This document shows positions 4,000 through 19,294 of a stretch of 64,000 nt of DNA, piece after piece. The notes under the pieces were generated by a model that was given only the letters and a program-made list of their open reading frames with translations, did no database searches and was not told where the DNA came from. Where the stretch lies: the NCBI RefSeq assembly GCF_009193135.1, contig NZ_VUKC01000019.1, forward strand, positions 1 through 64,000, written 5' to 3'. The DNA is from Georgenia satyanarayanai (GTDB lineage Bacteria; Actinomycetota; Actinomycetes; Actinomycetales; Actinomycetaceae). Every line of letters starts with the position of its first letter. The stretch's first letter is position 1. Both the position numbers and the translations under genes were made by a program.

Positions 4000-4257
4000 T
4001 CAGCCCAGGCGGGTCCTCACCTCGCCCAGGGAGGGGTTCGTCGCGGCGGAGCCGTCGGGGAACAGGACGGTCGGGACGGTCTGGTTGCCGCCGTTGACCT
4101 CCTCGACGAAGCTCGCGGCCTGCGGGTCCTCCTCGATGTTGACCTCGAGGTAGCCGATGCCCTCGCCGTCGAGCTGCTTCTTCAGCCGGCGGCAGTACCC
4201 GCACCACGTCGTCGTGTACATCGTGATCGTGCCGGGCTCGGGCGTCGTCGTGCTCAT
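4000..4257 (-). CDS. mrx1: Mycoredoxin (glutaredoxin-like, mycothiol-dependent)
   Basis: Small 85-residue thioredoxin-fold protein that in mycothiol-producing actinobacteria reduces protein-mycothiol mixed disulfides. The dithiol active site WCGYC (Cys19, Cys22) follows a first strand ITMYTTTW. The cis-Pro motif is QTVPTVLFPDG. The ATG at 4257 has a good ribosome site (AGAAGGAG) upstream. Earlier in-frame starts would add about 36 unsupported residues. The mycothiol partner is family knowledge, not visible here. Confidence 0.92.
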   Translation of the reverse strand: MSTTTPEPGTITMYTTTWCGYCRRLKKQLDGEGIGYLEVNIEEDPQAASFVEEVNGGNQTVPTVLFPDGSAATNPSLGEVRTRLG

Positions 4258-4373
4258 CAAGGTCTCCTTCTGTCGGGTTCGCCGACCATAACGCGGCCCC
4301 GCGACGGCGTATTTCCCGGCGGTCCTGGGGACGAGCGGGCCGCGTGTCGGCGGGGGCTGAGACACTGGCGGCG

Positions 4374-6419
4374 ATGACGAGCGCGACCACTCCCAGCAGC
4401 GAGGAGCTCCTCGCCGCCCTCGACGACGACCAGCGCGCCGTGGCCCAGAGCCTCACCGGGCCGCTGTGCGTCCTCGCCGGCGCGGGCACCGGCAAGACCC
4501 GCGCGATCACCTACCGCATCGCCCACGGCGTGCGCGCCGGCGTCTACAGCCCGACGACGGTCCTCGCCGTCACCTTCACCGCTCGCGCCGCGGGGGAGAT
4601 GCGCTCGCGGCTGCGTGACCTCGGGGTGGGCGGCGTCCAGGCGCGCACCTTCCACGCGGCCGCGCTGCGCCAGCTGTCCTACTTCTGGCCCGCCGCCATC
4701 GGCGGTGGGCTGCCGAGGATCCAGGAGCACAAGGCCCCGCTCGTCGCCGAGGCGTCCTCCCGGCTCGGCCTGGGCGTCGACCGCGTGAGCATCCGCGACC
4801 TCGCCGCCGAGATCGAGTGGGCCAAGGTCAGCCTCGTCACCGCGGAGGACTACGTGGCGCGTGCCGTCGCCGCCGGACGTGAGGAGGCGGCCGGGCAGGA
4901 CCGCGCCACGGTGTCCCGCCTGCTGGAGATCTACGAGGACGTCAAGACCGAGCGCGGCGTCGTCGACTTCGAGGACGTCCTCCTCCTCATGGTCGGCATC
5001 CTCGAGGAGCGGGAGGACGTCGCCGCGGAGGTCCGCCGCCAGTACCGCCACTTCGTCGTCGACGAGTACCAGGACGTCTCCCCGCTCCAGCAGCGGCTCC
5101 TCGACCTGTGGCTCGGGGACCGCAAGGAGCTGTGCGTGGTCGGGGACGTCTCGCAGACCATCTACTCCTTCACCGGCGCCACCCCGCGCTTCCTCACCGA
5201 CTTCCCGCGCCGCTTCACCGGCGCGGAGGTGGTCCGCCTCGTGCGCGACTACCGCTCCACTCCGCAGGTCGTCTCCCTGGCCAACAGCGTCCTCGAGCGC
5301 GCCGGACGCCACCGCTCCAGCGCCGCCGTGCGGCTCGTCGCCCAGCGCCCCTCGGGGCCCGCGGTACGTTTCGAGGCCTTCGACGACGACGTCGCCGAGG
5401 CCGCCGGCGTGGCCGCCCGGATCGCGGCGCTGGAGAAGACCGGGGTACCGCGCGGCGAGATCGCCGTCCTCTACCGGACCAACGGCCAGGCCGAGGCGAT
5501 CGAGCAGGCACTGGCCCAGGCGGACATCGGCTACCTCGTGCGCGGCGGGGAGCGGTTCTTCTCCCGCCGCGAGGTGCGTGAGGCCGTCGTCCTCCTGCGC
5601 GGAGCCGCCCGGACGATGGCCGACCACCCCATGCCCGACGCTGTCCGCGACGTCCTCGCCGGGATGGGCTGGGCCCCGGACCCGCCCGCCGCCCGCGGTG
5701 CGGTGCGCGAACGGTGGGAGTCGCTCCAGGCGCTCGTCGCGCTCGCGGACGAGATCGCCGCCACCCGGGGCGCGGACCTCGCCGGCCTCGTCGCCGAGCT
5801 CGAGGAACGGGCCAGCGCCCAGCACGCCCCGACCGTCTCCGGTGTCACCCTCGCCTCCCTCCACGCGGCCAAGGGCCTGGAGTGGGACGCCGTCTTCCTC
5901 GTCGGGGTGAGCGAGGGCCTGCTGCCCATCTCCCTGGCCGAGACCGAGGACGCGATCGCCGAGGAGCGCCGCCTGCTCTACGTGGGGGTCACCCGAGCTC
6001 GTGAGCACCTCATGCTCTCCTACGCCCGGGCCCGCACCGTCGGCGGCCGGGCGAGCCGCAAGCCCTCCCGGTTCCTCGACGGCCTGTGGCCCGAGGAGGG
6101 CGCCGCCCGCCGTCGCCCTGCCTCCCGCGCGCCCCGGCGCGACCGCATCGCCGAGCTCACCGAGTCCGACCCCGAGGGCGCCGCCCTCGTCGAGCGGCTG
6201 CGCGCCTGGCGCGGGCAGGTCGCCACCGCGATCGGCAAGCCGCCCTACACGGTCCTCCACGACACGACCCTCGCCGCGATCGCCGAGGCCAGGCCCAAGG
6301 ACCTGCGCCAGCTCGGGATCCTGCGCGGCGTCGGCGCCGCCAAGCTCGAGGCCTACGGGCCTGCCGTCCTCGCCGTCGTGCGCGGCGAGGATGTCGTCGT
6401 CGAGCCGCCCGGCGCCTGA
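4374..6419 (+). CDS. uvrD2: ATP-dependent DNA helicase UvrD2
   Basis: Superfamily 1A 3'-5' DNA helicase, 681 residues. Walker A is GAGTGKTR near residue 35, motif II is VDEYQDVSP, followed by GDVSQTIYSFTGA, and motif VI is YVGVTRAREHL. The C-terminal ~75 residues (VERLRAWRGQVA through LGILRGVGAAKLEAYG) form an HRDC domain, the feature that separates actinobacterial UvrD2 from UvrD1/PcrA. ATG at 4374 follows a -10-like GACACT at 4361-4366 by seven bases, so a leaderless start is likely; an in-frame GTG at 4344 lies upstream of that element. It is divergent from mrx1. Role: DNA unwinding in repair. Confidence 0.95.
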   Translation: MTSATTPSSEELLAALDDDQRAVAQSLTGPLCVLAGAGTGKTRAITYRIAHGVRAGVYSPTTVLAVTFTARAAGEMRSRLRDLGVGGVQARTFHAAALRQLSYFWPAAIGGGLPRIQEHKAPLVAEASSRLGLGVDRVSIRDLAAEIEWAKVSLVTAEDYVARAVAAGREEAAGQDRATVSRLLEIYEDVKTERGVVDFEDVLLLMVGILEEREDVAAEVRRQYRHFVVDEYQDVSPLQQRLLDLWLGDRKELCVVGDVSQTIYSFTGATPRFLTDFPRRFTGAEVVRLVRDYRSTPQVVSLANSVLERAGRHRSSAAVRLVAQRPSGPAVRFEAFDDDVAEAAGVAARIAALEKTGVPRGEIAVLYRTNGQAEAIEQALAQADIGYLVRGGERFFSRREVREAVVLLRGAARTMADHPMPDAVRDVLAGMGWAPDPPAARGAVRERWESLQALVALADEIAATRGADLAGLVAELEERASAQHAPTVSGVTLASLHAAKGLEWDAVFLVGVSEGLLPISLAETEDAIAEERRLLYVGVTRAREHLMLSYARARTVGGRASRKPSRFLDGLWPEEGAARRRPASRAPRRDRIAELTESDPEGAALVERLRAWRGQVATAIGKPPYTVLHDTTLAAIAEARPKDLRQLGILRGVGAAKLEAYGPAVLAVVRGEDVVVEPPGA

Positions 6420-6492
6420 GCCGGTCCCGGCCGCCGGATCTCGCGGATTCCCGCCCGTCGCGGCGATCGGGAAATTCTGCACGGTAAATACC

Positions 6493-6522
6493 TTGCCCCC
6501 CGTCACAGGGCAGGCGTAATGT
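6493..6522 (+). promoter_or_regulatory. whiB7 promoter with A/T-rich WhiB7-type upstream element
   Basis: TTGCCC (6493-6498) and TAATGT (6517-6522) are separated by 18 bases. Just upstream of the -35 lies an A/T-rich patch, GGTAAATACC within 6483-6492, in otherwise >70% GC DNA. Autoregulated WhiB7 promoters are known to carry such a patch immediately before the -35, read by the WhiB7 AT-hook. Confidence 0.75.
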
Positions 6523-6603
6523 CCCTCTCGTCCGTGACCGAGTCGGGGCCCGTGCCTAGCCAGCACACGAGGGCTCCCATGTGCGAAGGGGAGGTGAACC
6601 GCA

Positions 6604-6738
6604 GTGATCACCATCATCTCGATGGAAGCCGCCAGCCGTGAGCTGGGCCGAGCTATGCCCTGGTTCACCGGGGATCGCTCCCGCCTTCGCCCCGCGCCCG
6701 TCGGCTACGCCGAGGGCCGCGCGCTCCGGACGCCGTAG
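6604..6738 (+). CDS. whiB7 upstream ORF (44-residue leader peptide)
   Basis: GTG at 6604 preceded by GGGGAGGTG opens a 44-codon frame ending TAG at 6736-6738, 108 bases before whiB7. The peptide begins VITIISMEAASRELGRAM and ends ALRTP; it is Arg-rich, with a Trp at codon 20. whiB7 genes studied in mycobacteria and Streptomyces have a long leader with a translated upstream ORF that controls attenuation in response to ribosome-targeting drugs, so this is the expected regulatory peptide rather than a functional protein. Just after its stop, GAACCGC (6739-6745) can pair with GCGGTTC (6780-6786). Confidence 0.7.
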   Translation: MITIISMEAASRELGRAMPWFTGDRSRLRPAPVGYAEGRALRTP

Positions 6739-6786
6739 AACCGCACACGTTCTCCGCCGGACCGCGCAGCTCCCGACCGCGGTTCG
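6739..6786 (+). promoter_or_regulatory. Possible attenuator stem in the whiB7 leader
   Basis: GAACCGC directly after the upstream ORF stop can pair with GCGGTTC about 34 bases later. No U-tract follows, so whether this is a terminator, an anti-terminator or only part of a larger fold is not decidable by eye. Confidence 0.35.
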
Positions 6787-6846
6787 CCCCTCCCGGGGAA
6801 TGCCGCAGGTCTGTCCAGACCCGGCTTCGCACTCACGGAGACACAC

Positions 6847-7188
6847 GTGCAACTCACCACCCTTCTCGACCGCCTCAACGAGGGGTCCTCGCTGTCGTGG
6901 CCGCTGGCCGAGGAGACGGCCGTGCTCGCGCTGGCCGAGCCCACCGCTCCGCTCGCCCCGTGCCAGGACGCTGAGGACCCCGACCTCTGGTTCGCCGAGC
7001 GCCAGGCGGACGTCGAGTTCGCCAAGACGCTGTGCCGCACCTGCCCCGTCCGCGAGGCCTGCCTCGCCGGCGCGCTCGAGCGCGCCGAGCCGTGGGGCGT
7101 GTGGGGTGGGGAGGTGTTCATCGGCGGCGAGGTCGTCGCGACCAAGCGCGGACGCGGCCGGCCCCGCAAGCACCACCCCGCGGCCTGA
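6847..7188 (+). CDS. whiB7: WhiB7-type iron-sulfur transcription factor (intrinsic antibiotic resistance)
   Basis: 113-residue Wbl protein that in its family binds an Fe-S cluster and sigma factor and switches on drug-resistance genes. Cluster ligands are Cys39, Cys63, Cys66 and Cys72. The Wbl turn is WGVWGGE near residue 83. The C-terminus carries the AT-hook RGRGRPRK (101-108), diagnostic for WhiB7 and absent from other Wbl classes. The GTG at 6847 follows ACGGAGACACAC. A leader of more than 300 bases with promoter and upstream ORF precedes it, and it follows uvrD2 as in mycobacteria. Candidate targets in the window include the ABC-F gene at 20.0 kb. Confidence 0.95.
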   Translation: MQLTTLLDRLNEGSSLSWPLAEETAVLALAEPTAPLAPCQDAEDPDLWFAERQADVEFAKTLCRTCPVREACLAGALERAEPWGVWGGEVFIGGEVVATKRGRGRPRKHHPAA

Positions 7189-7190
7189 GC

Positions 7191-8222
7191 TCAGGCCCGG
7201 GCGACGGGCACCGCCCCCGATCGAGCCGGCAGGCCGGTGCACCCGCAGTCCGGGTGCACCGGCCACTGCTGTGTCCGGGGCACCGGCCGCCGCGCGTCGA
7301 CGACCAGGCTCGCGCCCGCGACCGCGACCGGCTCGCCGTCGAGGTGGGCCACCAGCTGCCCGACGGTGACGGCCGCCGCGAGCAGGCAGGTGCACGCCTC
7401 CACACCACGGGCGGGCGTGCCGAGCAGCTGCGTGGCCACCGCCGGCCAGCGCTCGTCCGCCGCCGTGCGGTGCAGCTCGACGCAGCGCCCGCACGGGCCC
7501 GCCCCGGGAATGACGAGCGGACCGACGACGACGTCGACCTCCCGCGTGACGACGAGCAGGTGGACGACGTCCTCCCGCACGAGAGGCCGCAGCCGCACCG
7601 GGTCGCTGACGTCCTGCTCGACGAGGACGACAACGTCGGGCCGGGTGCGCGCCGGCGCCGAGGTGCGCAGGTGCGGGTAGGTCAGGCGCAGGACCGCCCG
7701 GCCACGCTCACCGCGCTCCTTGCCGACGTCGTGCAACCCGTAGCCCCCCGGGCCCACGTCGTCGCGCCGGACCCGGGCCCGGTCCTCCACGAGCAGCGTC
7801 CCCACACCCGCTGCCGCCAGTCCGGAGGCGACGAGCAGACCGAGCCGCCCCAGCCCGAGGACGGCGACGACCGCCCGGCCGCGGCGGGCGACGACGTCGC
7901 TCGCGTCCCGCTGTGCCACCCGCGACCAGTGGTCGACCTCCGCGCCGAGCCCCTGGTGGTCGAGGGACGGGTCGCGGGTCCGTTCCAGGGCCCCGCACGC
8001 GTCGAGCCGGGCGAGGAGCTCGCGGGCCCGTCCGGCGCGCACCCCGAGCCCGCGGCCGCGGGCGAGGAAGGTGGCCTCGCTCGTCTCCCGCTCCAGGCCG
8101 TCGAGCAGCCGCTGCTCCTCACCCGAGAGCCCGTCGAGGACGACAGCAAGGTCCGGGTCCGCGTGGAGCTGGCTGCTGCCCTCCTGGCGCCACAGCACGT
8201 GGGTGCCTGGTCGTAGTCGCAT
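7191..8222 (-). CDS. ThiF/E1-like nucleotide-binding protein of unknown role
   Basis: 343-residue protein with a central Rossmann segment VLGLGRLGLLVASGLAAAGVG followed by LLVEDRARVRRDDVG, the pattern of E1/MoeB/ThiF adenylating enzymes. Cys-rich pairs CGRC and CGC in the C-terminal half may bind zinc. The N-terminal ~120 residues are helical and contain no recognised domain. The canonical E1 Arg-Asn motif after the glycine loop is not obvious, so activity is uncertain. ATG at 8222 has GGGAGGGCAG upstream. A ThiF-like gene beside whiB7/uvrD2 is common in actinobacteria, but its substrate is not known to me. It is convergent with whiB7, two bases between stop codons. Confidence 0.7.
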   Translation of the reverse strand: MRLRPGTHVLWRQEGSSQLHADPDLAVVLDGLSGEEQRLLDGLERETSEATFLARGRGLGVRAGRARELLARLDACGALERTRDPSLDHQGLGAEVDHWSRVAQRDASDVVARRGRAVVAVLGLGRLGLLVASGLAAAGVGTLLVEDRARVRRDDVGPGGYGLHDVGKERGERGRAVLRLTYPHLRTSAPARTRPDVVVLVEQDVSDPVRLRPLVREDVVHLLVVTREVDVVVGPLVIPGAGPCGRCVELHRTAADERWPAVATQLLGTPARGVEACTCLLAAAVTVGQLVAHLDGEPVAVAGASLVVDARRPVPRTQQWPVHPDCGCTGLPARSGAVPVARA

Positions 8223-8359
8223 CTGCCCTCCCACCCCGAGGATGGCACCGGCGTGCCCGGCACCGCGCGGATACTCCCGCGGGCTGTGGACAGGCCCGCC
8301 TGTGGACGGGGACCTCCCGCGCGGCGTGGGTGTCGGCGGCCGGCCGTAGATTGGGAGAC

Positions 8360-8893
8360 ATGTCGGAGATCGAGGTCAGGCGCAGCCGTCGGCGCACCCG
8401 GACGGTCCAGGCCTTCCGCGAGAACGGCCGCACCGTCGTCGCCATCCCCGACCGCTTCACCGCGGCGGAGGAGGCGGAGTGGGTGGCGCGGATGGTCGAG
8501 CGGCTCGAGCGCACCGGCCGCCGGCGGCGACCGTCGGACGCCCAGCTCGCCACCCGTGCCGGGCAGCTGTCCGAGCGCTACCTCGAGGGGAGCGCCCGTC
8601 CCCGGTCGGTGGCGTGGGTGGGCAACCAGACCACCCGCTGGGGGTCGTGCACCCCGAGCACAGGCACCATCCGCATCTCGGAGCAGGTCAAGGGGATGCC
8701 CACGTGGGTGCTGGACTACGTCCTCGTCCACGAGCTCGCGCACCTGCTCGTCGGAGGCCACGGCCCCGACTTCTGGGCCTGGGTCGAGCGGTACCCCCAG
8801 ACGGAGCGGGCGCGCGGCTTCCTCGACGGCGTGTCCTTCGCCCGCCGGCTCGAGGGCAACCCCGCACCCGAGCCGGGCGGGACGGAGGACTAG
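8360..8893 (+). CDS. YgjP-like (WLM/DUF45) zinc metallopeptidase
   Basis: 177-residue protein with the zinc site HELAH in the context VLVHELAHLLVGGHG, preceded by the family segment WGSCTPSTGTIRIS. Both are hallmarks of the YgjP/DUF45 metallopeptidases. ATG at 8360 lies seven bases after a -10-like TAGATT (8347-8352), so the transcript is probably leaderless even though GGGAGAC could also act as a ribosome site. Its TAG stop shares the palindrome CTAG (8890-8893) with the stop of the convergent DUF2342 gene. The substrate is unknown. Confidence 0.88.
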   Translation: MSEIEVRRSRRRTRTVQAFRENGRTVVAIPDRFTAAEEAEWVARMVERLERTGRRRRPSDAQLATRAGQLSERYLEGSARPRSVAWVGNQTTRWGSCTPSTGTIRISEQVKGMPTWVLDYVLVHELAHLLVGGHGPDFWAWVERYPQTERARGFLDGVSFARRLEGNPAPEPGGTED

Positions 8894-10338
8894 CGCGAGT
8901 CGCCGTCGTCGTCCACGTCGGGACGGCTCCCGTCGGTGCCGGTCTCGCCGGGGTCCTGCGGATCCGCGGACTGCTCCGCCTCGGCGAAGATGCTCGCGAG
9001 GGCGGCATCGACATCCTCGTCGGCGCTCGCGGCGGCGTCGCGGGCGGCGACGAAGCCCTGGGGGTCGTCGAGCTCCTCGGCCGTGGGCATGAGGTCCGGG
9101 TGGGACCACAGGGCGTCGCGCTCCTCGATGCCACGCTGGTCGGCGAGGTGCGTCCACAGCGCCGCGGCCTCGCGCAGCCGCCGCGGCCGCAGCTCCAGGC
9201 CGACGAGCGAGGCGAAGGTCTGCTCGGCCGGACCGCCCGCAGCGCGGCGCCGCCGGACCATCTCGCGCAGCGGCACGCCGTGCGGCAGGTGCGGGGCCAC
9301 GGCCTGGCCGGCCACGACCTCCACCCAGCCCTCGACGAGCGCCAGGGCCGTCTCGAGGCGCACCAGCGCCGCGCGCTGGGCGTCGCTCTGCTCGAGGGCG
9401 AACACACCGCCGGAGAACGCCTCGCGCAGGGACTCGGGGTCGCTGGGGTCGAGGCCGCGGACGGCCTCCTCGATCGCCGCCGTGTCGATGGAGATCTCAC
9501 GCGCGTAGGCCTCCACGGTGCCCAGGAGATGGGCGCGCAGCCACGGCACGTGCGCGAAGAGCCGCGCGTGGGCGACCTCGCGGACGGCGAGGAAGAGGCG
9601 CACCTCCTCGGCCGGGGCGTCCAGGCCCTCCGCGAAGGCGCTGACGTTGGCGGGGACGAGGGCGGCGTCGTGGCCCTCGACGAGCGGCAGGCCGGTGTCG
9701 GAGGCGCCGAAGGCCTCTCCGGCGAGCGTGCCCACGGCCTGTCCCACCTGCATGCCGAAGACGGCGCCGCCGAGCTGGCGGATCATCCCGCCCCCCGCAC
9801 CGGCACCCAGGCCGGCGGCGAGCGGGTGGTCGCCGAGCTCCCGGGTCTGCTCCTCCAGGACACGCTCGAGCGCGCGCGCCACGGAGGTGGCGATCGGCTC
9901 GGCGAGCGTCTTCCAGGTCGGCAGCGTCTCGCGCGCCCAGTCCGAGCGGGACCACGCCCGGGTCGCACCCCCGCTGGGGCCCAGCTCGGTGACGGCGTCC
10001 AGCCACAGGTCCGCCACGCGCAGCGCCTCGGTCACCTCGGCCGCCTGGGCGGCGGTGACGGCGACGTCACCGGTCTGACGCACCACCTGGGTGGCGACGT
10101 CGCCGGCGAGGGCCCAGTTGACGGGGTCGCTGCCTCCGGCCGCGAGGATGTGCTGCATCTGGCCGAGCATCATCGCCAGCTGGTTGCGGTCCTGGGGGAG
10201 GCCGGCGGCGTTGGCCATCGCCTCGGGGTCGAGGCCCGCGGCGCGCATCGCGGCCATGGCCTCGTCGGCGGCCTGCGGCCCGAGCATGGAGCGCAGCAGC
10301 GCCTCCCAGCTCTCCTCACCGGCGGGGTCCTGGCTCAT
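8890..10338 (-). CDS. DUF2342 / zinc-dependent-metalloprotease-family protein
   Basis: 482-residue cytoplasmic protein matching the actinobacterial DUF2342 family, annotated as zinc-dependent metalloprotease or putative hydrolase. Features are the N-terminal ExxWxxLLRSMLGP helix, a Gly-rich centre (AAGLGAGAGGGMIRQLGG), and VREVAHARLFAHVPWL. In that motif the first His of a classic HExxH is Arg, so catalysis should not be assumed. The C-terminal ~50 residues are acidic and low-complexity. ATG at 10338; it diverges from the PDZ protease gene, a pairing conserved in actinobacteria. The role is unknown. Confidence 0.8.
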   Translation of the reverse strand: MSQDPAGEESWEALLRSMLGPQAADEAMAAMRAAGLDPEAMANAAGLPQDRNQLAMMLGQMQHILAAGGSDPVNWALAGDVATQVVRQTGDVAVTAAQAAEVTEALRVADLWLDAVTELGPSGGATRAWSRSDWARETLPTWKTLAEPIATSVARALERVLEEQTRELGDHPLAAGLGAGAGGGMIRQLGGAVFGMQVGQAVGTLAGEAFGASDTGLPLVEGHDAALVPANVSAFAEGLDAPAEEVRLFLAVREVAHARLFAHVPWLRAHLLGTVEAYAREISIDTAAIEEAVRGLDPSDPESLREAFSGGVFALEQSDAQRAALVRLETALALVEGWVEVVAGQAVAPHLPHGVPLREMVRRRRAAGGPAEQTFASLVGLELRPRRLREAAALWTHLADQRGIEERDALWSHPDLMPTAEELDDPQGFVAARDAAASADEDVDAALASIFAEAEQSADPQDPGETGTDGSRPDVDDDGDSR

Positions 10339-10472
10339 TCGAACAGCTCCGATCCTTCGGGGGGCACCACGGTAACCCCGGCGCGCGACGCGTCCGAGCG
10401 CGGCCGGAGCGGTTTCGCCCAGGGCGTGACCACGCCGGACGGTTCGGCGTGCCGCCCGGCGGGGGTGATGAT

Positions 10473-11597
10473 GTGGCGGTGCCCCTGCGACCCGACCAGC
10501 CTCCGGAGACCGGTGACGACCGGCCGCTGCTCACCCCCCGGACGGTGACCGCCGCCGTCGCCGGGGCGGTCACCTTCGTCCTCGCCCTGGCGATGCTGTT
10601 CGTCACCCCGCCGTACGCGGTCCAGAGCCCCGGCCCGACCCTCGACACGCTCGGGGACGTGCCCGACGGCTCCCCGCTCATCACCGTCGAGGGCACCGAG
10701 ACCTATCCCAGCGACGGGCAGCTGCGCCTCACCACCGTCTCCACCCGTGGCGGCCCGGGCTACCCGGCCACCGCCGCGCAGGTGATCGGCGGCTGGCTCT
10801 CCGGGACGACGACGGTCCTGCCGCGCGAGGCGGCCTTCGACCCCGAGCAGACGCGGGAGGACGTCGAGGAGGAGTCGACCATCCAGATGACCTCCTCGCA
10901 GACCAACGCCACCGTCGCGGCGCTCACCGAACTCGGTTACGACGTGCCCACCGAGCTGCGCGTCGCCGGCACCAGCCCCCACGGCCCGACCGCCGGGCTG
11001 CTCGAGGAGGGCGACACGCTCGTCACCATCGCCGCCGGCGCCGGTCCCACCGAGCTCAGCTCCTTCGCCGTGCTCAGCGAGGTCCTGGCCGACACCCCGC
11101 CCGGGTCCACGGTCACCCTCGGGGTCGAGCGCGCGGGGCGGGAGACGCCGGTGGAGGTCGTCACCGCCGACGACGGCGACGGCGGCAGCCTCCTCGGCGT
11201 CATGATCTCCCCGGAGGTCGACCTGCCCGTCGACGTCGGCTTCGCCATCGAGAACATCGGTGGCCCGAGCGCGGGCCTCATGCTCACGCTCGGGATCGTC
11301 GACATCCTCACCCCCGGCTCGCTCACCGGCGGGGCCGTCGTCGCCGGCACCGGCACCGTCGACCTCGCCGGCGACGTCGGACCGATCGGGGGCATCGCCC
11401 AGAAGATGGCCGGCGCGGTGCGCGACGGCGCCGAGTGGTTCCTCGCGCCGGTGGAGAACTGCGGTGAGGTCACCGGCGCCGTGCCGGACGGGCTGGAGGT
11501 CGTCGCCGTCGACACCGTCGCCGACGCCGTCGCGGCGCTCGAGGCCGTGACGGAGGGACGGACCGGGGATCTCGAGCGCTGCCCGGCGGCCCCCTGA
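10473..11597 (+). CDS. Membrane-anchored PDZ / Lon-like (S16) protease
   Basis: 374-residue secreted-side protease with one N-terminal membrane anchor (residues ~23-45), a PDZ domain (about 160-240) and a Lon-type catalytic domain. The Ser-Lys dyad is Ser266 in GGPSAGLM and Lys311 in IGGIAQKMAGA. Family members act outside the membrane on unknown substrates and are near-universal in actinobacteria and Firmicutes (YlbL-like). The start is uncertain: GTG codons at 10449, 10473 and 10479 are all in frame. 10473 is chosen because GGGGGTGAT lies just before it. Confidence 0.88.
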   Translation: MAVPLRPDQPPETGDDRPLLTPRTVTAAVAGAVTFVLALAMLFVTPPYAVQSPGPTLDTLGDVPDGSPLITVEGTETYPSDGQLRLTTVSTRGGPGYPATAAQVIGGWLSGTTTVLPREAAFDPEQTREDVEEESTIQMTSSQTNATVAALTELGYDVPTELRVAGTSPHGPTAGLLEEGDTLVTIAAGAGPTELSSFAVLSEVLADTPPGSTVTLGVERAGRETPVEVVTADDGDGGSLLGVMISPEVDLPVDVGFAIENIGGPSAGLMLTLGIVDILTPGSLTGGAVVAGTGTVDLAGDVGPIGGIAQKMAGAVRDGAEWFLAPVENCGEVTGAVPDGLEVVAVDTVADAVAALEAVTEGRTGDLERCPAAP

Positions 11598-11601
11598 GCG
11601 G

Positions 11602-12159
11602 CTAGGAGAACGTCGCGCGCAGCGCCTCGACGAGCCCGGGCACGGCGTCCGGGGAGCCGCCCACGGCGTCGTCGGAGTCGTTGTTGCGCGAGCGCAGCGC
11701 GCACCACGACTCCCCGGTGCGCAGGACACCCGCGACGATCCGCACGTCCTGCCGGTCGGGGTGCGCCTCGAGGTAGGCGACGGCCTCCTCGGGGTCGCGG
11801 GGCATGTCGGTCTCCGCCTCCGGCGGGACGACGATGCGCTCGACGACGATCGCGGCGCCGTCGACCTCCTCTGGCCAGCCCAGCTGCGCGAGGAGCTCCT
11901 CGAGGGTGTCGGCCTGCGGCAGGCCGTCCTGCTCGATCGACAGCAGGTGCTCGGGGTCCAGCCGCGCCGACTCCTCCGCGCCGTCGGGCAGCTCGGGGGC
12001 GAGCGCGGGGTTGACCGCCAGCGCCGAGGCCGTGCGCACGAGGGAGAAGACGAGGACCGGGGAGTCCCATCCCAGCGAGCCGACGTGGCGCTCGATGTCG
12101 AGGACCGCCTCGGCGAGGGCGCGCTGGCGGGGGGTGGGGTCGGTGGGGGAAGCCGTCAT
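11602..12159 (-). CDS. PPA1309-like conserved actinobacterial protein
   Basis: 185-residue soluble protein matching the PPA1309 family by its RALAEAVLDIERHV start and its WDSPVLVFSLV and VERIVVPPEAE segments. No catalytic motif is visible and the family has no known function. ATG at 12159 follows a -10-like GATCAT (12166-12171, minus strand) by six bases, suggesting a leaderless mRNA. The gene is convergent with the PDZ protease (four bases apart) and divergent from UPF0182, an arrangement conserved across actinobacteria. Confidence 0.75.
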   Translation of the reverse strand: MTASPTDPTPRQRALAEAVLDIERHVGSLGWDSPVLVFSLVRTASALAVNPALAPELPDGAEESARLDPEHLLSIEQDGLPQADTLEELLAQLGWPEEVDGAAIVVERIVVPPEAETDMPRDPEEAVAYLEAHPDRQDVRIVAGVLRTGESWCALRSRNNDSDDAVGGSPDAVPGLVEALRATFS

Positions 12160-12294
12160 GCGCCCATGATCGCGCACGTCAGGACGGGGAGGCGAGCGGC
12201 GCATGTGGGAACCTAGGAGGTGGGCGGCGCGTTGTCCCGACAGGGGCGACCTCACGCCGCCTCCCGACAGCTCCACGACCGAAGGTGCCACCAC

Positions 12295-15200
12295 GTGACG
12301 ACTTCTTCCGTCCCACGACCACCGCGGCCCGCCGGAGGCCGACGACGGGGCGCGCTCGTGCCCACACTCGTCGTCCTCGCGGTGCTCGCGGCGATCCTCA
12401 TGCTCACCGCCCAGTTCTGGACGGAGGTGCTGTGGTTCTCGCACCTGGACTTCGAGGAGGTCCTGTGGCGGGAGTGGACGACCCGAGCCGTCCTCTTCGC
12501 CATCGGGTTCCTCGTCATGGGCCTGTCCGTGTGGCTCGGCCTGCGCCTGGCCTACCGCTCGCGCCCCATCTACGCGCCGGTCACCCCTGAGCAGCAGAAC
12601 CTCGACCGTTACCGCGAGAGCGTCGAGCCGCTGCGCCGGATCGTCATGATCGGTGCGCCGATCGTCCTGGGCGTCTTCTCCGGCATCTCCGCGAGCGGGA
12701 ACTGGCGCGCGGTGCTCATGTGGCTCAACCGTGAGCCCTTCGGCACGACCGACCCGGAGTTCGGGATCGACATCGGCTTCTTCGTCTTCACCCTGCCGGT
12801 GCTGCGCACGCTCATCTCCTTCCTCATGACGGTCGTCCTCATCACCCTCGTGGCCTCGCTCGTCACGCACTACCTCTACGGGGGCATCCAGCTCGCCGGC
12901 CGCCCCGAGCGGGTCACGCGGGCGGCGCGGGTGCAGCTGTCGATCATGGCGGCCGTCTTCGTCCTGCTGATCGGCGCGAACTACTACCTCGACCGCTACT
13001 CGCTGCTCGTCGGGCAGAACGACCGCTTCGCCGGTGCCTCCTACGCCGACATCAACGCCAACCTCCCCGCGCGCACCATCCTCGCGGTCATCGCCGTCCT
13101 CATCGCGGTGATGTTCGTCGTCGCCGCCTTCCGTGGCAGCTGGATGCTGCCCGCCGCCGGCGTGGGCCTCATGATCCTGTCCGGAGTCGTCATCGGCGGG
13201 ATCTACCCGGCGATCGTCCAGCGCTTCCAGGTGACGCCCAACGCCGTCGAGTCGGAGTCGCCCTTCATCCAGCGCAACATCGACGCGACGCTCGCCGCCT
13301 ACGGGCTCGACAGCATCGAGAGCCAGACCTACGACGCCGTCACCGAGGCCGAGGCCGGGCAGCTGCGGGACGACACCGAGTCGACCGCCAGCATCCGCCT
13401 GCTCGACCCGAACATCGTCAGCCCCACCTTCCGCCAGCTCCAGCAGAACCGGCAGTACTACGACTTCAACTCCACGCTGTCGGTGGACCGCTACGAGATC
13501 GACGGCGAGAAGCGCGACACCGTCATCGCCATCCGTGAGCTCAACCAGGAGGGCCTGGGCAACGACCAGCGCACCTGGGTCAACGACCACACGGTGTACA
13601 CCCACGGCTTCGGCGCCGTGGCGGCCTACGGCAACACCGTGTCGGGCGACGGCCAGCCGGCGTTCTTCGAGTACGGCATCCCCTCGATCGGTGAGATCGG
13701 GGAGTACGAGGAGCGGGTCTACTTCGGTCAGAACACCCCGAGCTACTCGATCGTCGGCGCCCCGGAGGGCACCGAGCCGTGGGAGCTGGACTACCCGAAC
13801 GACGCCGCCCCGCAGGGGCAGGTCAACACGACCTACACGGGCGACGGCGGCCCGAGCCTGGGCAACCTGTGGAACCAGCTGCTCTACGCGATCCGGATGG
13901 GCTCGGAGCAGATCCTCTTCTCCGACCGCGTCAACGACGAGTCGCAGATCCTCTACGACCGCGACCCGCACGTGCGCGTCCAGAAGGTGGCGCCCTACCT
14001 CACCCTCGACGCCCGGGCCTACCCGGCGATCGTCGACATGGACGGCGATGAGTCGACGCCCAAGGAGCTGGTGTGGATCGTCGACGGCTACACGACGACG
14101 AACGAGTACCCGTACTCCGCACGCGAGTCCCTCGAGGACGCGACCACGGACGCCCTCACCGACGAGCTGGGCGGTGTCGTCGTCGGCCCCGCCCCGGAGG
14201 AGGTCAACTACATCCGCAACTCCGTCAAGGCGGTCGTCAACGCCTACGACGGTGAGGTCACCCTCTACGAGTGGGACGAGGAGGACCCGATCCTCCAGAC
14301 CTGGCAGAACGTCTTCCCGGACCACATCTCGCCGATGAGCGACATCAGCGGTGACCTCATGAGCCACCTGCGCTACCCGGAGGACCTGTTCAAGGTCCAG
14401 CGTGAGCTGCTCAGCCGCTACCACGTGACCGACGCGGCCTCGTTCTACTCCGGCGGCAACTTCTGGAACATCCCCAACGACCCGACCGCTGGGGAGGGAG
14501 TGCCCCAGCCGCCGTACTACCTCACGCTGCAGATGCCCGAGCAGGAGAGCGCGGAGTTCTCGCTGACCTCGAGCTTCATCCCCGGTGGCCAGACGGACCG
14601 GAACATCCTCACCGGCTTCCTCGCGGTCGACTCCGAGACCGGGAACACGCCCGGCGAGGTGAGGGACGGCTACGGGCAGCTGAGGCTGCTCGAGCTGCCC
14701 TCGGACGTCACGGTGCCCGGACCGGGCCAGGTGCAGAACACCTTCAACTCCAACCCGACGATCTCCACCGAGCTCAACCTGCTCCAGCAGGGTGGCTCGC
14801 AGGTGCTGCACGGCAACCTCCTCACGCTGCCGGTGGGCGGCGGCCTGCTGTACGTCCAGCCGGTGTACGTCCAGGCCTCGGCCGGTACCCAGTACCCGCT
14901 GCTCCAGTACGTGCTCGTCGCCTTCGGTGAGGAGATCGGCTTCGCGCCGACACTGACCGAGGCGCTCGACCAGGTCTTCGGCGGTGACTCGGGTGCCGAG
15001 GGCGGGGACGCCGACGTCGTCGACGAGACGCCAGAGGGCGAGGAGCCGACCGAGCCCGAGGGCACCACCGAGGTCGACGCCGGTGCGCAGCAGCGCCTCA
15101 CCGAGGCGCTGGCGGCCGCGAACCAGGCGCTGCAGGACGGCCAGGCGGCCCTCACGGAGGGTGACTGGACGACCTACGGCGAGGCGCAGGCCCGCCTCCA

Positions 15201-15451: not shown

Positions 15452-15528
15452 CGCGGGGTGGAGCAGTTCGGTAGCTCGCCGGGCTCATAACCCGGAGGTC
15501 GCAGGTTCAAATCCTGCCCCCGCTACCA
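15452..15528 (+). tRNA. Initiator tRNA-Met (anticodon CAT)
   Basis: 77-nt cloverleaf with encoded CCA. The anticodon loop is CTCATAA on a stem with three consecutive G-C pairs (CCGGG/CCCGG). The T loop GTTCAAATC is present, and the acceptor begins CGCGGGG and ends CCCCGCT-A-CCA, leaving the first position unpaired. The GGG/CCC anticodon stem and unpaired position 1 identify it as initiator, not elongator. Confidence 0.97.
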
Positions 15529-15585: not shown

Positions 15586-17094
15586 TCAGGCGGGGCCGAG
15601 CCAGGACAGCAGGAGCAGGCAGACGTCGTCGTGCCCCTCGCCGGGCGGGAGCAGGCGGTCGGTCACGGCGTGCACCGCGTCCTGCGGCTCGAGCGCCCGG
15701 GTCTGCGCCCCGACCTCGACGAGCTCGTCGAGGCGGGTGGGCAGTGGGCGGTCGCGGCGTTCGACGAGGCCGTCGGTGTAGAGGAGCAGCCGGTCGCCGG
15801 GCACGAGGTCGACCACGGCCTCCGCCCGCTGGCTGCCCGGCCCTGTGAGCCCGAGCGGCGTGGAGCGCCCGTCCCACAGCAGACGTGCGGCGCCGTCCCC
15901 GCCGAGGAGCAGGGGCGGGAGGTGGCCGGCGCAGGCGAAGCGGAACCGGCCGGTGAGGAGGTCCAGCTCGCCGTACAGAAGGGTGGCCGCGGTGGAGCCC
16001 GGGACGCGCTGGACGAACCTGTCCAGAGCGCCGAGCACCTGCGCCGGGCCGACGCCGGGGCCGGCCACCGCCCGGCCGGCGCTGCGCAGCTGCCCCATCG
16101 CGACGGCGGCGTCCAGCCCGCGGCCCACGATGTCGCCGACCGCGACGGCCAGGACGTGGTCGTCGAGGTGGAAGGCGTCGTGCCAGTCCCCACCCACCTC
16201 GAGGGACTCCACCCCCGGCCGGTACGCCGTCGTCACGACGACGCGCTCGTCCTGCGGCAGCGGGGCGGTGAGGAGCGCCTGCTGGAGCTGGTGGGCGATC
16301 GCGGCGCTGCGGTCGAAGAGACTGGCCCGCTCCAGGGCGGCGCCCGCCTGCTGCCCGACGGCGGTGAGCACCGCCAGGTCCGGAGGCTCGGCCCCCGCGC
16401 CGTCGTCGGGCAGCAGGGACAGCACGCCGAGCAGCCCGGACCGCCCGTGGAGGGGGACGAGGACACGGCCGTCGGCGACGAGGGCCGCGCGTGGCCACGA
16501 CCGCGCCGACAGGGGGGCCGAGGTGCCGGCCTCCTCACCCGTGGCCGAGTGGGCAACCAGCCGGCCCTGTGGGTCGGTGAGCCAGCACGTCGCCGCGCGG
16601 GCGGCGAGTGACGGGGTCGCGGCGAGCAGCGCCGCGGCCACCCCGTCCAGACCCACGGCGGCCGAGAGGGCCGCGGTGACGTCCTGGAGCACCTGGGTGC
16701 GGCGGGCGGCGGCGTCGGCCTCCTTGCGGGCGGCCAGCAGCTCGCGTTCGTAGCGGGAGCGGTCCCGGGCGCTGGAGACGGACACCCGGACGCCGCCGTC
16801 GGGGGCGACGACGGCCGTCACGAGCACGGGCATGCGCCCGCCGGCACTGCGCAGCTCGAGCGCCACCTCGTCGGCCCGCCCCTCCACGTGGAGCAGCGGG
16901 GACAGGTGGGTCTCCCAGTAGATCCGGCCGCCCACCGAGAGGAGCTGGCTCAGACGCACCCGCCCGACCACCTCGTCCGCCGGCCGCCCCACCCACCGGA
17001 GGAAGGTGGTGTTGGCGTCGAGGACGGTGCCGTCGTCGGCGAGGAGGAGCAGGCCGGCGGGGGCCTGGTCCCAGGCGGCGGCGCGGTCGTTCAC
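15586..17094 (-). CDS. RsbP-like PP2C phosphatase with PAS and GAF sensor domains
   Basis: 502-residue signalling phosphatase of the RsbP/RsbU class, which in the family dephosphorylates an anti-anti-sigma factor. Domains in order are: PAS (about 8-110; LLLLADDGTVLDANTTFLRW), a short coiled linker, GAF (about 150-270), and PP2C/SpoIIE (about 285-500) with VGGDWHDAF, VGDIVGRGLDAA, CAGHLPPLLL and the late GHDDVCLLLL acidic motif. B. subtilis RsbP has PAS plus PP2C but no GAF, so this is an expanded sensor. GTG at 17094 overlaps the TGA of the RsbQ-like gene (GTGA), indicating a coupled pair. No sigma factor, RsbV or RsbW lies nearby. Confidence 0.88.
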   Translation of the reverse strand: MNDRAAAWDQAPAGLLLLADDGTVLDANTTFLRWVGRPADEVVGRVRLSQLLSVGGRIYWETHLSPLLHVEGRADEVALELRSAGGRMPVLVTAVVAPDGGVRVSVSSARDRSRYERELLAARKEADAAARRTQVLQDVTAALSAAVGLDGVAAALLAATPSLAARAATCWLTDPQGRLVAHSATGEEAGTSAPLSARSWPRAALVADGRVLVPLHGRSGLLGVLSLLPDDGAGAEPPDLAVLTAVGQQAGAALERASLFDRSAAIAHQLQQALLTAPLPQDERVVVTTAYRPGVESLEVGGDWHDAFHLDDHVLAVAVGDIVGRGLDAAVAMGQLRSAGRAVAGPGVGPAQVLGALDRFVQRVPGSTAATLLYGELDLLTGRFRFACAGHLPPLLLGGDGAARLLWDGRSTPLGLTGPGSQRAEAVVDLVPGDRLLLYTDGLVERRDRPLPTRLDELVEVGAQTRALEPQDAVHAVTDRLLPPGEGHDDVCLLLLSWLGPA

Positions 17095-17888
17095 GCCGCC
17101 AGGTACGTCTTCATCGCCGCGACGAGCTGGTCGGGGGCGCTGAGGTTCGGGCAGTGCCCCACGGCGTCGAGCACGGCGAACTCGCTGTCGGGGAGGTGGT
17201 CGCGCACGTACTCGCCCACCTCCATGGGCGCGATGACGTCCTCGCGGCACTGCACGACGAGCGCGGGGGTGGTGACCTCCGCCAGGTCCGCGCGGTTGTC
17301 CGACAGGAACGTCGTGCGGGCGAAGCGGCGGGCGAGCGTCGGGTCGGTCCGGCAGAAGCTCGCCGTCAGCTCCTCTCCCAGCTCGGGGCGGTCGGGCACG
17401 CCCATGATGACCGGGGCGATGTGGGCGGACCAGCCGAGGTAGTTGTCGTCCATGGTCTCGAGGAGCTCGTCGATCTCCTCCTGGCTGAACCCGCCGCGGT
17501 AGTCGCCGTCGTCGATGTAGCGGGGGCTGGGACTCACGAGCACGAGCCGGTCGAAGAGCTCGGGCCGCTCGCGGGCGGCCAGGACGCCGATCATGGCGCT
17601 CACGGAGTGGCCGACGAGGACGACCGGCCCGGTGCCGAGCGCGTCGACGATCTCGACGACGTCCTGCGCGTACCCCTCGAGGCGGGCGTGGCGGGCGGCG
17701 TCGTACGCGGACGGGTCGGAGGCACCGGCACCGACGTGGTCGAAGAGCACGACCCGGTGGGTGGCCTCGAAGTGCGGGGCGACGAACCGCCACATCTGCT
17801 GGTCGCAGCCGAAGCCGTGGGCCAGCACCATGGTGGGTCCCTCGGCCGAGCCGCTCACCCTGACGTTGTTCCGCTTGAGCGCATCCAC
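17091..17888 (-). CDS. rsbQ: RsbQ-like alpha/beta hydrolase, partner of the RsbP-like phosphatase
   Basis: 265-residue hydrolase very like B. subtilis RsbQ, the protein that RsbP needs to sense energy stress, and related to plant D14/KAI2 receptors. Diagnostic stretches are AHGFGCDQQMWRFVAP, LFDHVGAGASD, GYAQDVVEIVDAL and GHCPNLSAPD. The triad is Ser95 (GHSVS), Asp217 and His245, one to two residues shifted from the Bacillus enzyme. GTG at 17888 is seven bases after a -10-like TAGTGT (minus strand, 17896-17901), so a leaderless start is likely; an ATG eight codons upstream is possible. The small hydrophobic ligand of RsbQ proteins is not established. Confidence 0.9.
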   Translation of the reverse strand: MDALKRNNVRVSGSAEGPTMVLAHGFGCDQQMWRFVAPHFEATHRVVLFDHVGAGASDPSAYDAARHARLEGYAQDVVEIVDALGTGPVVLVGHSVSAMIGVLAARERPELFDRLVLVSPSPRYIDDGDYRGGFSQEEIDELLETMDDNYLGWSAHIAPVIMGVPDRPELGEELTASFCRTDPTLARRFARTTFLSDNRADLAEVTTPALVVQCREDVIAPMEVGEYVRDHLPDSEFAVLDAVGHCPNLSAPDQLVAAMKTYLAA

Positions 17889-17948
17889 GAACGGGACACT
17901 ACGGCACGGCATCCGGCCGTCGTGGCGCGGTTCGCGGACGGGCGCGAC

Positions 17949-19079
17949 TCACGCCGGGGCGGGCAGGGGGAAGGACCGGTCCGCGAAGAAGATGCTCCGT
18001 GCCGCCTGCCGTCCCGGCACGGTGCGCAGGCCCGCGAACGCCACCTCCATGGCCGCCGGGGAGCGCACGAGGCCCATGGTGCGCCGCATCGCCACCCGTC
18101 CGCGGAAGCGCCGGCGCAGGGCCGCTCCGTCGTACGAGCGCAGGGCTCCGGTGTCGCCGCTCGTCAAGGCCTCGTCGAGGGCGTCCGCGGCGTGCTCGGA
18201 CAGGCGCAGGCACGGGTCCAGGCCGCCGGCGGTCAGAGGGGACACGGCCCCCGCGGCGTCCCCGACGAGCAGCCCGCGCGGGGAGCTGATGCGTCGTAGC
18301 AGACCACCGACGGGAATGGGCCCGCCGCGCCGCTCGACGGCGGCCGGGCGGGGCGGTACGCCCGGCGCCAGCGCGGCGAGCTCCCGCACCGCCCGCCACA
18401 CGCCCTCGGGGTAGCGGGCGGCGTAGCCGGCCGTGCCGAGGTGGACGTGCTCGCCGTCGTCGACCACCCAGCCGAGGTACCCCGGGGCGAGCCGCGGGTG
18501 CAGGACGCAGTGGAAGGTCGGCACGTCGGTACCGGCGCTCGGGACCACCTCCTCCGCGCCGACGAGGAGACGCCTGTTGCGGTCCAGGCCCAGGTCACGC
18601 GCCACCCGGGAGCGGGCGCCGTCGGCGCCGACGACGAACCGGGGCCGGATCACGGACGGTGCTCCGTCGGTGCCCACGAGCTGCGCGGCGCCGTCGGCGT
18701 ACCCCGCGTAGCGGGTGCCGAGGAGCACCCGGGCGCCCGCCGCGCGAGCCCGGTCGGTGAAGGCGGCGTAGAGCCCGGGCATGTCCCCGACCCGGAACTC
18801 GTCGCGGTCGCTGACGAGGACGACGGGCCGCCGCAGGCTCGGTGGGTAGAGCGCCACCCGCCGGATGGGTGGGCCGAGGCGGTCCGCCGGGAGCGCGAAG
18901 TCGTCGAGGGTGCGGCGCACAAAGATGCCGGTCGTCCGGACCGAGCGGCCGAGGTCGGTGCGCTTGTCGACGACGCTCACCGCGTGGCCGCGCCCGGCGA
19001 GCAGCGTGGCCACATGGAGGCCGGCCAGTCCCGCGCCGACGACGAGGACGTCGGCGGCGTGTCCGCCCGGGCCGCTCAC
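17949..19079 (-). CDS. FAD-dependent oxidoreductase of the geranylgeranyl-reductase type
   Basis: 376-residue flavoprotein. The N-terminal dinucleotide fold is VLVVGAGLAGLHVA, followed by an Arg-containing VDKRTDLGRSVRTTG in place of the usual acidic loop, and the second FAD motif is GLLVGDAAGAVSPLTAGGLDP. These match the geranylgeranyl reductase/PHBH-like group that hydrogenates isoprenoid chains or oxidises aromatic rings. GTG at 19079 overlaps the TGA of the XRE regulator, so it is co-transcribed with XRE and DUF2975. No isoprenoid biosynthesis genes are close, and the substrate is unknown. Confidence 0.8.
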   Translation of the reverse strand: MSGPGGHAADVLVVGAGLAGLHVATLLAGRGHAVSVVDKRTDLGRSVRTTGIFVRRTLDDFALPADRLGPPIRRVALYPPSLRRPVVLVSDRDEFRVGDMPGLYAAFTDRARAAGARVLLGTRYAGYADGAAQLVGTDGAPSVIRPRFVVGADGARSRVARDLGLDRNRRLLVGAEEVVPSAGTDVPTFHCVLHPRLAPGYLGWVVDDGEHVHLGTAGYAARYPEGVWRAVRELAALAPGVPPRPAAVERRGGPIPVGGLLRRISSPRGLLVGDAAGAVSPLTAGGLDPCLRLSEHAADALDEALTSGDTGALRSYDGAALRRRFRGRVAMRRTMGLVRSPAAMEVAFAGLRTVPGRQAARSIFFADRSFPLPAPA

Positions 19080-19294
19080 GGTGCCGTCCCGTCGGGCTCC
19101 CAGCGCAGCAGGTCGCCGGGCTGGCAGTCGAGCGCCTCGCACAGGGCCTCGAGGGTGGTGAAGCGGACGGCCTTGGCGCGGCCGTTCTTGAGCACCGCGA
19201 GGTTGGCCGGCGTGATGCCCACCCGCTCGGCGAGCGTCCCCACCGACATCTTCCGGCGGGCGAGCATGACATCGATGTCGACGACGATGGGCAT
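19076..19294 (-). CDS. Small XRE-family (YozG-like) transcriptional regulator
   Basis: 72-residue protein that is almost only a helix-turn-helix: MSVGTLAERVGITPANLAVLK is followed by VRFTTLEALCEALDCQPGDLL, the typical XRE fold. This size and its partner match the YozG type usually paired with a DUF2975 membrane protein. Its ATG overlaps the stop of the DUF2975 gene (TGATG) and its own stop overlaps the flavoprotein start. It probably binds the palindrome at 19834-19850 to control its operon (inference). Confidence 0.88.
   Translation of the reverse strand: MPIVVDIDVMLARRKMSVGTLAERVGITPANLAVLKNGRAKAVRFTTLEALCEALDCQPGDLLRWEPDGTAP

Follow-up and report, generated by a model that had tools for sequence, protein, structure and literature searches.

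The window, that is, the whole 64,000-nucleotide stretch that was analyzed, carries on its minus strand rsbQ (17091..17912), whose 273-aa product is an alpha/beta hydrolase of the RsbQ/KAI2/D14 kind, followed by rsbP (15586..17094), encoding a 502-aa PAS-GAF-PPM phosphatase. The GTG start of rsbP lies on the TGA stop of rsbQ in a GTGA overlap (17091..17094, minus strand), which agrees with the coupled pair described in an earlier note made from the letters alone, and translational coupling is suggested by this overlap. The same note placed the rsbQ start at 17888, which was revised, as this position is an in-frame GTG eight codons inside an ATG-started frame; the ATG was favored because the alignments of three homologues from the genus begin at residue 2 or 3. 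A gene for an FAD-dependent oxidoreductase (17949-19142) lies 36 bp upstream on the same strand as rsbQ, and a tRNA-Met (cat) gene (15452-15528, plus strand) lies just past the rsbP end. The oxidoreductase was considered as a conserved ligand-making neighbor and rejected, since among 80 other loci it was matched in L066 and L067 only (G, C and L numbers denote genomes, contigs and loci).

The closest solved relative of the window RsbQ was B. subtilis RsbQ (1wom), with an E of 4.9e-89 over residues 11-272 of 273, and it outranked the KAI2/D14 receptors among the solved-structure matches. The intact catalytic triad reported earlier as Ser95/Asp217/His245 was found again, numbered Ser103/Asp225/His253 from the ATG. 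Among the RsbQs compared, the catalytic Ser and Asp were present in 81/81 and the His in 80/81. The proteins of the pair share 85-92% identity within the genus Georgenia, and the closest rsbP from a named genome, that of Georgenia satyanarayanai, stands at 86%. By analogy with the RsbQ class, the window RsbQ may be required for activation of its phosphatase.

A Pfam search of the window RsbP detected PAS_4 (3.5e-7) and SpoIIE/PPM (2.4e-42), and the GAF models stayed under the curated cut-offs (GAF_3, 20.6 of 27 bits; GAF_2, 20.1 of 28.6 bits). GAF_2 was detected in 9 of the 11 aligned RsbP members, with a best value of 5.7e-13. An AlphaFold2 model of the single RsbP chain gave a mean pLDDT of 87.3 and a pTM of 0.62, and the domain limits below are our reading of its secondary elements. 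On the minus strand, they comprise an RsbP-type PAS domain with a long helix at residues 54-71, the SVGGRIYWETHLSP region (residues 12-108, 16771..17061; alignment and AlphaFold2), a predicted helix from PAS to GAF (109-145, 16660..16770; AlphaFold2), the GAF core (148-229, 16408..16653; Pfam matches of relatives, AlphaFold2, and Foldseek), a predicted helix from GAF to PPM (240-275, 16270..16377; AlphaFold2 and linker measurement), and the PPM/SpoIIE phosphatase domain (285-498, 15601..16242; Pfam and structure comparison). The chain stops after the PPM domain and contains neither HATPase nor STAS. When the GAF segment was predicted alone (pLDDT 89.1), the top Foldseek matches were for the most part GAF domains or sensors that contain one (best E 6.2e-5). 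The segment between PAS and PPM is a GAF fold as judged from the relatives and the predicted structure, in both of which the assignment is clear. The PAS-GAF-PP2C architecture proposed earlier, added GAF included, is hence upheld by Pfam PAS_4 and SpoIIE, the GAF_2 matches of relatives, and the predicted fold. The nearest solved PPM was that of Rv1364c (3ke6), with a Z of 29.8 in VIA-align rows that lie mainly on residues 269-502 and barely cover PAS and GAF.

The pair was compared with the RsbQ-PAS module of Nadezhdin, Brody and Price (2011, PMC3183031), whose account of the module gives nine distinguishing PAS residues (B. subtilis positions 10, 13, 48, 53, 55, 56, 59, 72, and 86) and notes that a DIT motif is lacking. 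The window PAS matches eight of these nine residues, with Ala and not Cys at position 10, in a register set by eye on the conserved Pro62 instead of an aligned B. subtilis sequence. Cys occupies position 10 in 61 of 76 aligned PAS domains. The DIT motif is absent at the PAS end of the window RsbP, where VSVSSARDRSRYERELL comes after the PAS domain, and both the RsbQ gene directly upstream and an RsbP-type PAS as the most N-terminal domain are present. With eight of nine class residues and no DIT, the window pair was therefore filed as a member of the RsbQ-PAS module. It shares with the module, as that study describes it, the position of RsbQ just upstream, the N-terminal RsbP-type PAS, a helix leading to a PPM output, and the class residues. 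The helix at residues 109-145 is predicted in the single-chain AlphaFold2 model behind PAS, at the place where the module has its coiled-coil segment. The difference is the GAF between PAS and output: the word GAF is absent from the main text of PMC3183031, which in its treatment of domain architectures mentions extra PAS domains only, and searches of an open-access library listed no report of a GAF within a phosphatase linked to RsbQ. The GAF-PPM stress phosphatase RsbZ of C. difficile, as described in PMC12143880, likewise joins GAF to PPM by a helical linker, but its N-terminal GAFs are in tandem and that description includes no RsbQ link. Judged from its sequence, the window pair is a real and conserved variant of the published sensor module with a GAF insertion.

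The search for RsbQ covered 59 relatives, of which 8 gave a match, and 394 genomes of the class, of which 74 did. Of these 82 loci, 80 were fetched and the two weakest (G174 and G306) were left out. The sample contains duplicates (G441 = G001, G443 = G026; L066/L150, L069/L152, and L073/L160 are pairwise repeats), and G466 (L183) contributes only an rsbP end at a contig start, with its RsbQ outside the view. By single-sequence search, PAS came directly after RsbQ in 76 of 81 loci, window included, and this adjacency exceeds chance. The other five loci were L081 and L100, which are cut off by contig ends, L114, L125, and L145; a profile search recovered the PAS in L100 and L114 and did not in L125 and L145. 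The outputs were mostly PPM, and three (L072, L138, and L140) were read by eye as GGDEF-EAL. Locus L144 (4571-5974) encodes RsbQ and then PAS-GAF-GGDEF, the GGDEF being detected by Pfam, so that the GAF insertion occurs with a cyclase output too.

In a tree of 126 RsbQ rows built by a quick method, one 40-row clade received an SH-aLRT of 100. It consists of 36 PAS-GAF-PPM forms and four with a fused HATPase, from Georgenia, Cellulomonas, Promicromonospora, and others. When named genomes were scanned and the best 80 of 577 matches examined, more GAF forms turned up in Georgenia, Cellulomonas, Oerskovia, Actinotalea, and Kineococcus, as well as in Promicromonospora, Cellulosimicrobium, Luteimicrobium, Isoptericola, and Xylanimonas. 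Multi-GAF modules were also observed: those loci among L189-L209 that have RsbQ, from Actinoplanes, Dactylosporangium, Micromonospora, and others, carry one to three GAFs, a PPM, mostly a fused HATPase, and an adjoining STAS gene. GAF presence requires at least five changes over the RsbQ tree, and therefore the domain was gained or lost several times. The added GAF, which the earlier note treated as a feature of this phosphatase, is thus present, but it marks an RsbQ-RsbP clade and is not peculiar to this genome.

The linkers were measured by taking the R of RxYE as the end of PAS and LQ/LR before Pro as the entry to PPM, with L079, split over two frames, outside the set. All 62 GAF-less proteins measured had PAS-PPM linkers of 28+7n residues. 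The 60 located by pattern had lengths of 28 (36 proteins), 35 (13), 42 (7), 49 (2), and 56 (2), and the two outside the pattern had linkers of 35. Over the RsbQ tree, the length changed at least eight times, with all differences being multiples of seven, to which tandem duplication of heptad repeats could have contributed. A heptad spacing of the total PAS-to-PPM length in GAF forms was also considered, which the measured lengths ruled out. The GAF-PPM helix was 17 residues long in 40 of the 46 GAF proteins that were measurable among 56, and the other six look like anchor mishits. A 2025 eLife paper (PMC12143880) proposes crossing helical linkers as the switch of PPM phosphatases and models RsbQ between PAS and linker; the F55A substitution in the B. 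subtilis PAS is reported in PMC3183031 to weaken RsbP binding to RsbQ. The word heptad is absent from the main texts of these two RsbP papers, and heptad-spaced linkers have already been described for phytochrome-regulated cyclases (PMC9587094). The spacing observed here is evidence, at the level of sequence, for the model of helical transmission in PPM phosphatases that PMC12143880 puts forward.

The GAF forms may hence be read as one helical relay with a GAF set into it, and the part played by the GAF itself admits two views. It might be a passive, ligand-free spacer with sensing by RsbQ-PAS alone, which concerns the GAF step only, is compatible with the rest of the reading preferred below, and appears to us a serious if somewhat less probable option. 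The GAF is variable, is shortened in G043 (L071), and scores under the Pfam cut-offs in the window RsbP, and the helix behind it is of fixed length in most proteins; these points are consistent with a spacer. Against it, the 40-row clade retains the GAF throughout, and the domain reappears in other lineages of RsbQ, in one case with a GGDEF output (L144).

The Georgenia genome (3.44 Mb, 23 contigs, completeness 100) was next compared with the classical output. No protein of the whole genome exceeded the cut-off of TIGR02980 (SigB/F/G), the best value being 4.4e-38. Sigma-70 region 2 was matched 11 times, always outside the contig of the window, and region 3 in two proteins only, which were read by eye as the primary and the flagellar sigma. 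The window itself gave no match to STAS or to sigma-70 region 2 or 3, and the statement that rsbV, rsbW, and sigma genes are lacking locally holds, none having been found in the window. Its sole HATPase_c_2 match (39927-40091) lies inside a 485-aa ORF (38784-40241) that looks like a sensor kinase and not like RsbW; we take this ORF to resemble PdtaS. The sensor pair and the type of phosphatase are the same as in the B. subtilis RsbQ-RsbP-RsbV-RsbW-SigB energy-stress pathway, whereas the genome has no SigB/F/G over the cut-off and the window has neither rsbV nor rsbW.

SigB/F/G was over the TIGR02980 cut-off in 48 of 58 RsbQ genomes. The ten under it, a status read from the best E-values, include G000 (this genome), G001, G002, and G004 of the genus Georgenia, G007, G026, and G043, as well as G170, G240, and G374, whose best matches near 1e-64 make a divergent SigB possible there. 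A further 37 genomes, from which L169 and L177 stood apart, contained nine over the cut-off, namely Kineococcus, three MAGs that hold the fused form within the clade, and five whose GAF modules are of other kinds (L187, L190, L191, L195, and L199). The remaining 28 were HATPase-less GAF genomes under the cut-off, two of which repeat G001 and G026 and one of which, G466, holds the rsbP piece only. SigB/F/G was hence found in Kineococcus only among the 29 additional genomes whose GAF form belongs to the clade and lacks a HATPase, and all four fused-HATPase clade genomes (G079 = G472, G134, G470, and G471) have it. Outside the clade, GAF forms without a detected HATPase do have SigB/F/G (G437, L121; G473, L187; and G089, L087, a contig end). 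A SigB-type sigma gene lies inside the locus in 4 of 62 GAF-less forms and in L120, and relatives with such a gene near RsbQP are L108, L120, L129, L131, and L139.

The classical output is thus missing while the sensor is intact, since SigB/F/G is absent over the cut-off and the RsbQ-RsbP residues are retained, and the Georgenia sensor pair probably controls something other than SigB. The earlier suggestion of a different anti-sigma system stands as far as a non-SigB system is probable; its anti-sigma nature need not hold, because no SigB/F/G is over the cut-off genome-wide. An RsbQ product may serve as the signal, as the same note suggested. Control of an ECF or unrecognised sigma factor through a HATPase protein nevertheless has to be weighed, as the 11 region 2 matches, two of them with region 3, leave room for an ECF-type target and relatives carry a SigB-type gene near the pair in the five loci just listed. 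It is regarded as unlikely, given a genome without SigB/F/G over the cut-off, region 3 proteins that read as primary and flagellar, and a window without any sigma match. The same lack of SigB/F/G would suit a pair decaying after SigB loss, but the catalytic residues of RsbQ and the class residues of PAS are intact, identity is 85-92% inside the genus, and the pair is retained in many genera among the best 80 of 577 matches, so that a remnant is highly improbable.

As for the substrate, a STAS-domain protein had been named earlier as something the genome should hold. Six STAS matches were found, one in a transporter-like protein and five in others, and a later profile search added one more STAS protein on C17. 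The genome thus has STAS and HATPase proteins in other places, with none of them linked to rsbQP. Locus profiles (STAS, HATPase, sigma, PAS, GAF, and PPM) seeded from single sequences, which may miss distant members, detected neither a STAS nor a HATPase gene close to the window pair. A STAS gene lay downstream in 18/18 loci of GAF forms with a fused HATPase, in 1/42 loci of HATPase-less GAF forms (Kineococcus; the set includes a few genomes twice), and in 17/62 of the GAF-less forms, plus L120, which is GAF-less and followed by a HATPase. The empty neighborhood of the window pair would fit an RsbP acting outside partner switching, on Ser/Thr-kinase substrates. This is quite improbable in our view, since STAS genes adjoin every fused-HATPase GAF form, four of these genomes being in the same RsbQ clade, and the nearest PPM is that of Rv1364c, in which, according to PMC12143880, anti-sigma and anti-anti-sigma domains are fused with the phosphatase. 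Like some GAF-type RsbQ modules of other actinobacteria, which have a fused HATPase and an adjoining STAS gene, this PAS-PPM-RsbW-RsbV type of fusion (PDB 3ke6) unites the parts of a switch; the window RsbP shares with it the closest solved PPM, and differs in having neither HATPase nor STAS and in pairing with RsbQ.

Two loci elsewhere in the genome were compared as partners. A cluster on C18 (L015, G000:C18:112000-131500, at 9928-13873) encodes a GAF-PP2C, a cellulose-synthase-like glycosyltransferase, RsbV, and RsbW; its RsbV-RsbW pair has a DSSGLG motif, no sigma gene occurs among the genes scanned, and it is scattered among relatives. Were it the target, RsbQP would control exopolysaccharide, and the C18 RsbV was the best match of the STAS beside GAF-less modules in 4/4 readable cases (L073 and L120 left out). 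However, the cluster has its own phosphatase, and its RsbV stayed unmatched at E 1e-8 in the RsbQ-positive same-genus genomes G001, G002, and G004. The cluster was hence rejected as the main target, as it is not kept with RsbQ inside the genus, and we hold this explanation to be very unlikely.

The other locus, on C16, adjoins purA and consists of STASa (C16:89688-90017) and STASb (C16:92376-92708) flanking a PPM-HATPase gene (L016, G000:C16:84000-98000, at 4246-8709). The PPM-HATPase protein has 742 aa and a PAS-like N-terminus by eye, and the nearest sigma region 2 match on C16 is over 50 kb away. STASa and STASb lay no more than 6 kb apart in 32/33 genomes with a GAF module, Kineococcus being the exception, vs 5/27 RsbQ-negative relatives, as counted by reading match coordinates with G458 left out. 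The Fisher value of 1.1e-10 ignores relatedness, by which this co-occurrence with RsbQ is confounded, and many of the RsbQ-negative genomes are small. In the 13 loci inspected (L016 of this genome and L230-L241, RsbQ-negative genomes included), the PPM-HATPase gene was present in 11 and purA in all 13, and the locus persists without RsbQ in Georgenia G003 and four others. Of the STAS proteins beside ten GAF-type modules, six matched STASb best, two the C18 RsbV, and two a C19 STAS, these matches being weak and split. From the co-occurrence with GAF modules and the STASb-like neighbors, the purA-linked switch is the best-placed candidate target of RsbP. This locus has a PPM domain of its own, so RsbP may be dispensable for it.

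Taken together, these observations make it fairly likely that the window encodes the known RsbQ-PAS input module with an added GAF and a partner-switch output without SigB. By analogy with B. subtilis, RsbQ would bind the PAS domain and switch the phosphatase on. The signal would then travel as a helical movement along the PAS-GAF helix, across the GAF, and along the GAF-PPM helix until it reaches the PPM, and the GAF may act as a second input. RsbP would dephosphorylate an RsbV-like STAS protein encoded elsewhere in the genome, which would in turn tie up an RsbW-like HATPase. A sigma factor of the SigB/F/G kind is improbable as the target so released, because these genomes show none, and STASa / PPM-HATPase / STASb at purA are the candidate partners. 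A more far-reaching version, that the RsbQ-PAS sensor was kept without SigB/F/G, took the GAF as second input, and was rewired to the purA-linked, sigma-free switch with a non-transcriptional target, is tentative and on balance rather doubtful.

The GAF clade, the missing SigB/F/G, the co-occurrence with the purA-linked STAS locus, and the 28+7n linkers go beyond the published module. The bacterial RsbQ is related to the karrikin and strigolactone receptors of plants, and an RsbQ-RsbP pair without SigB separates this sensor from its classical output, which may open a route to its ligand and its target.
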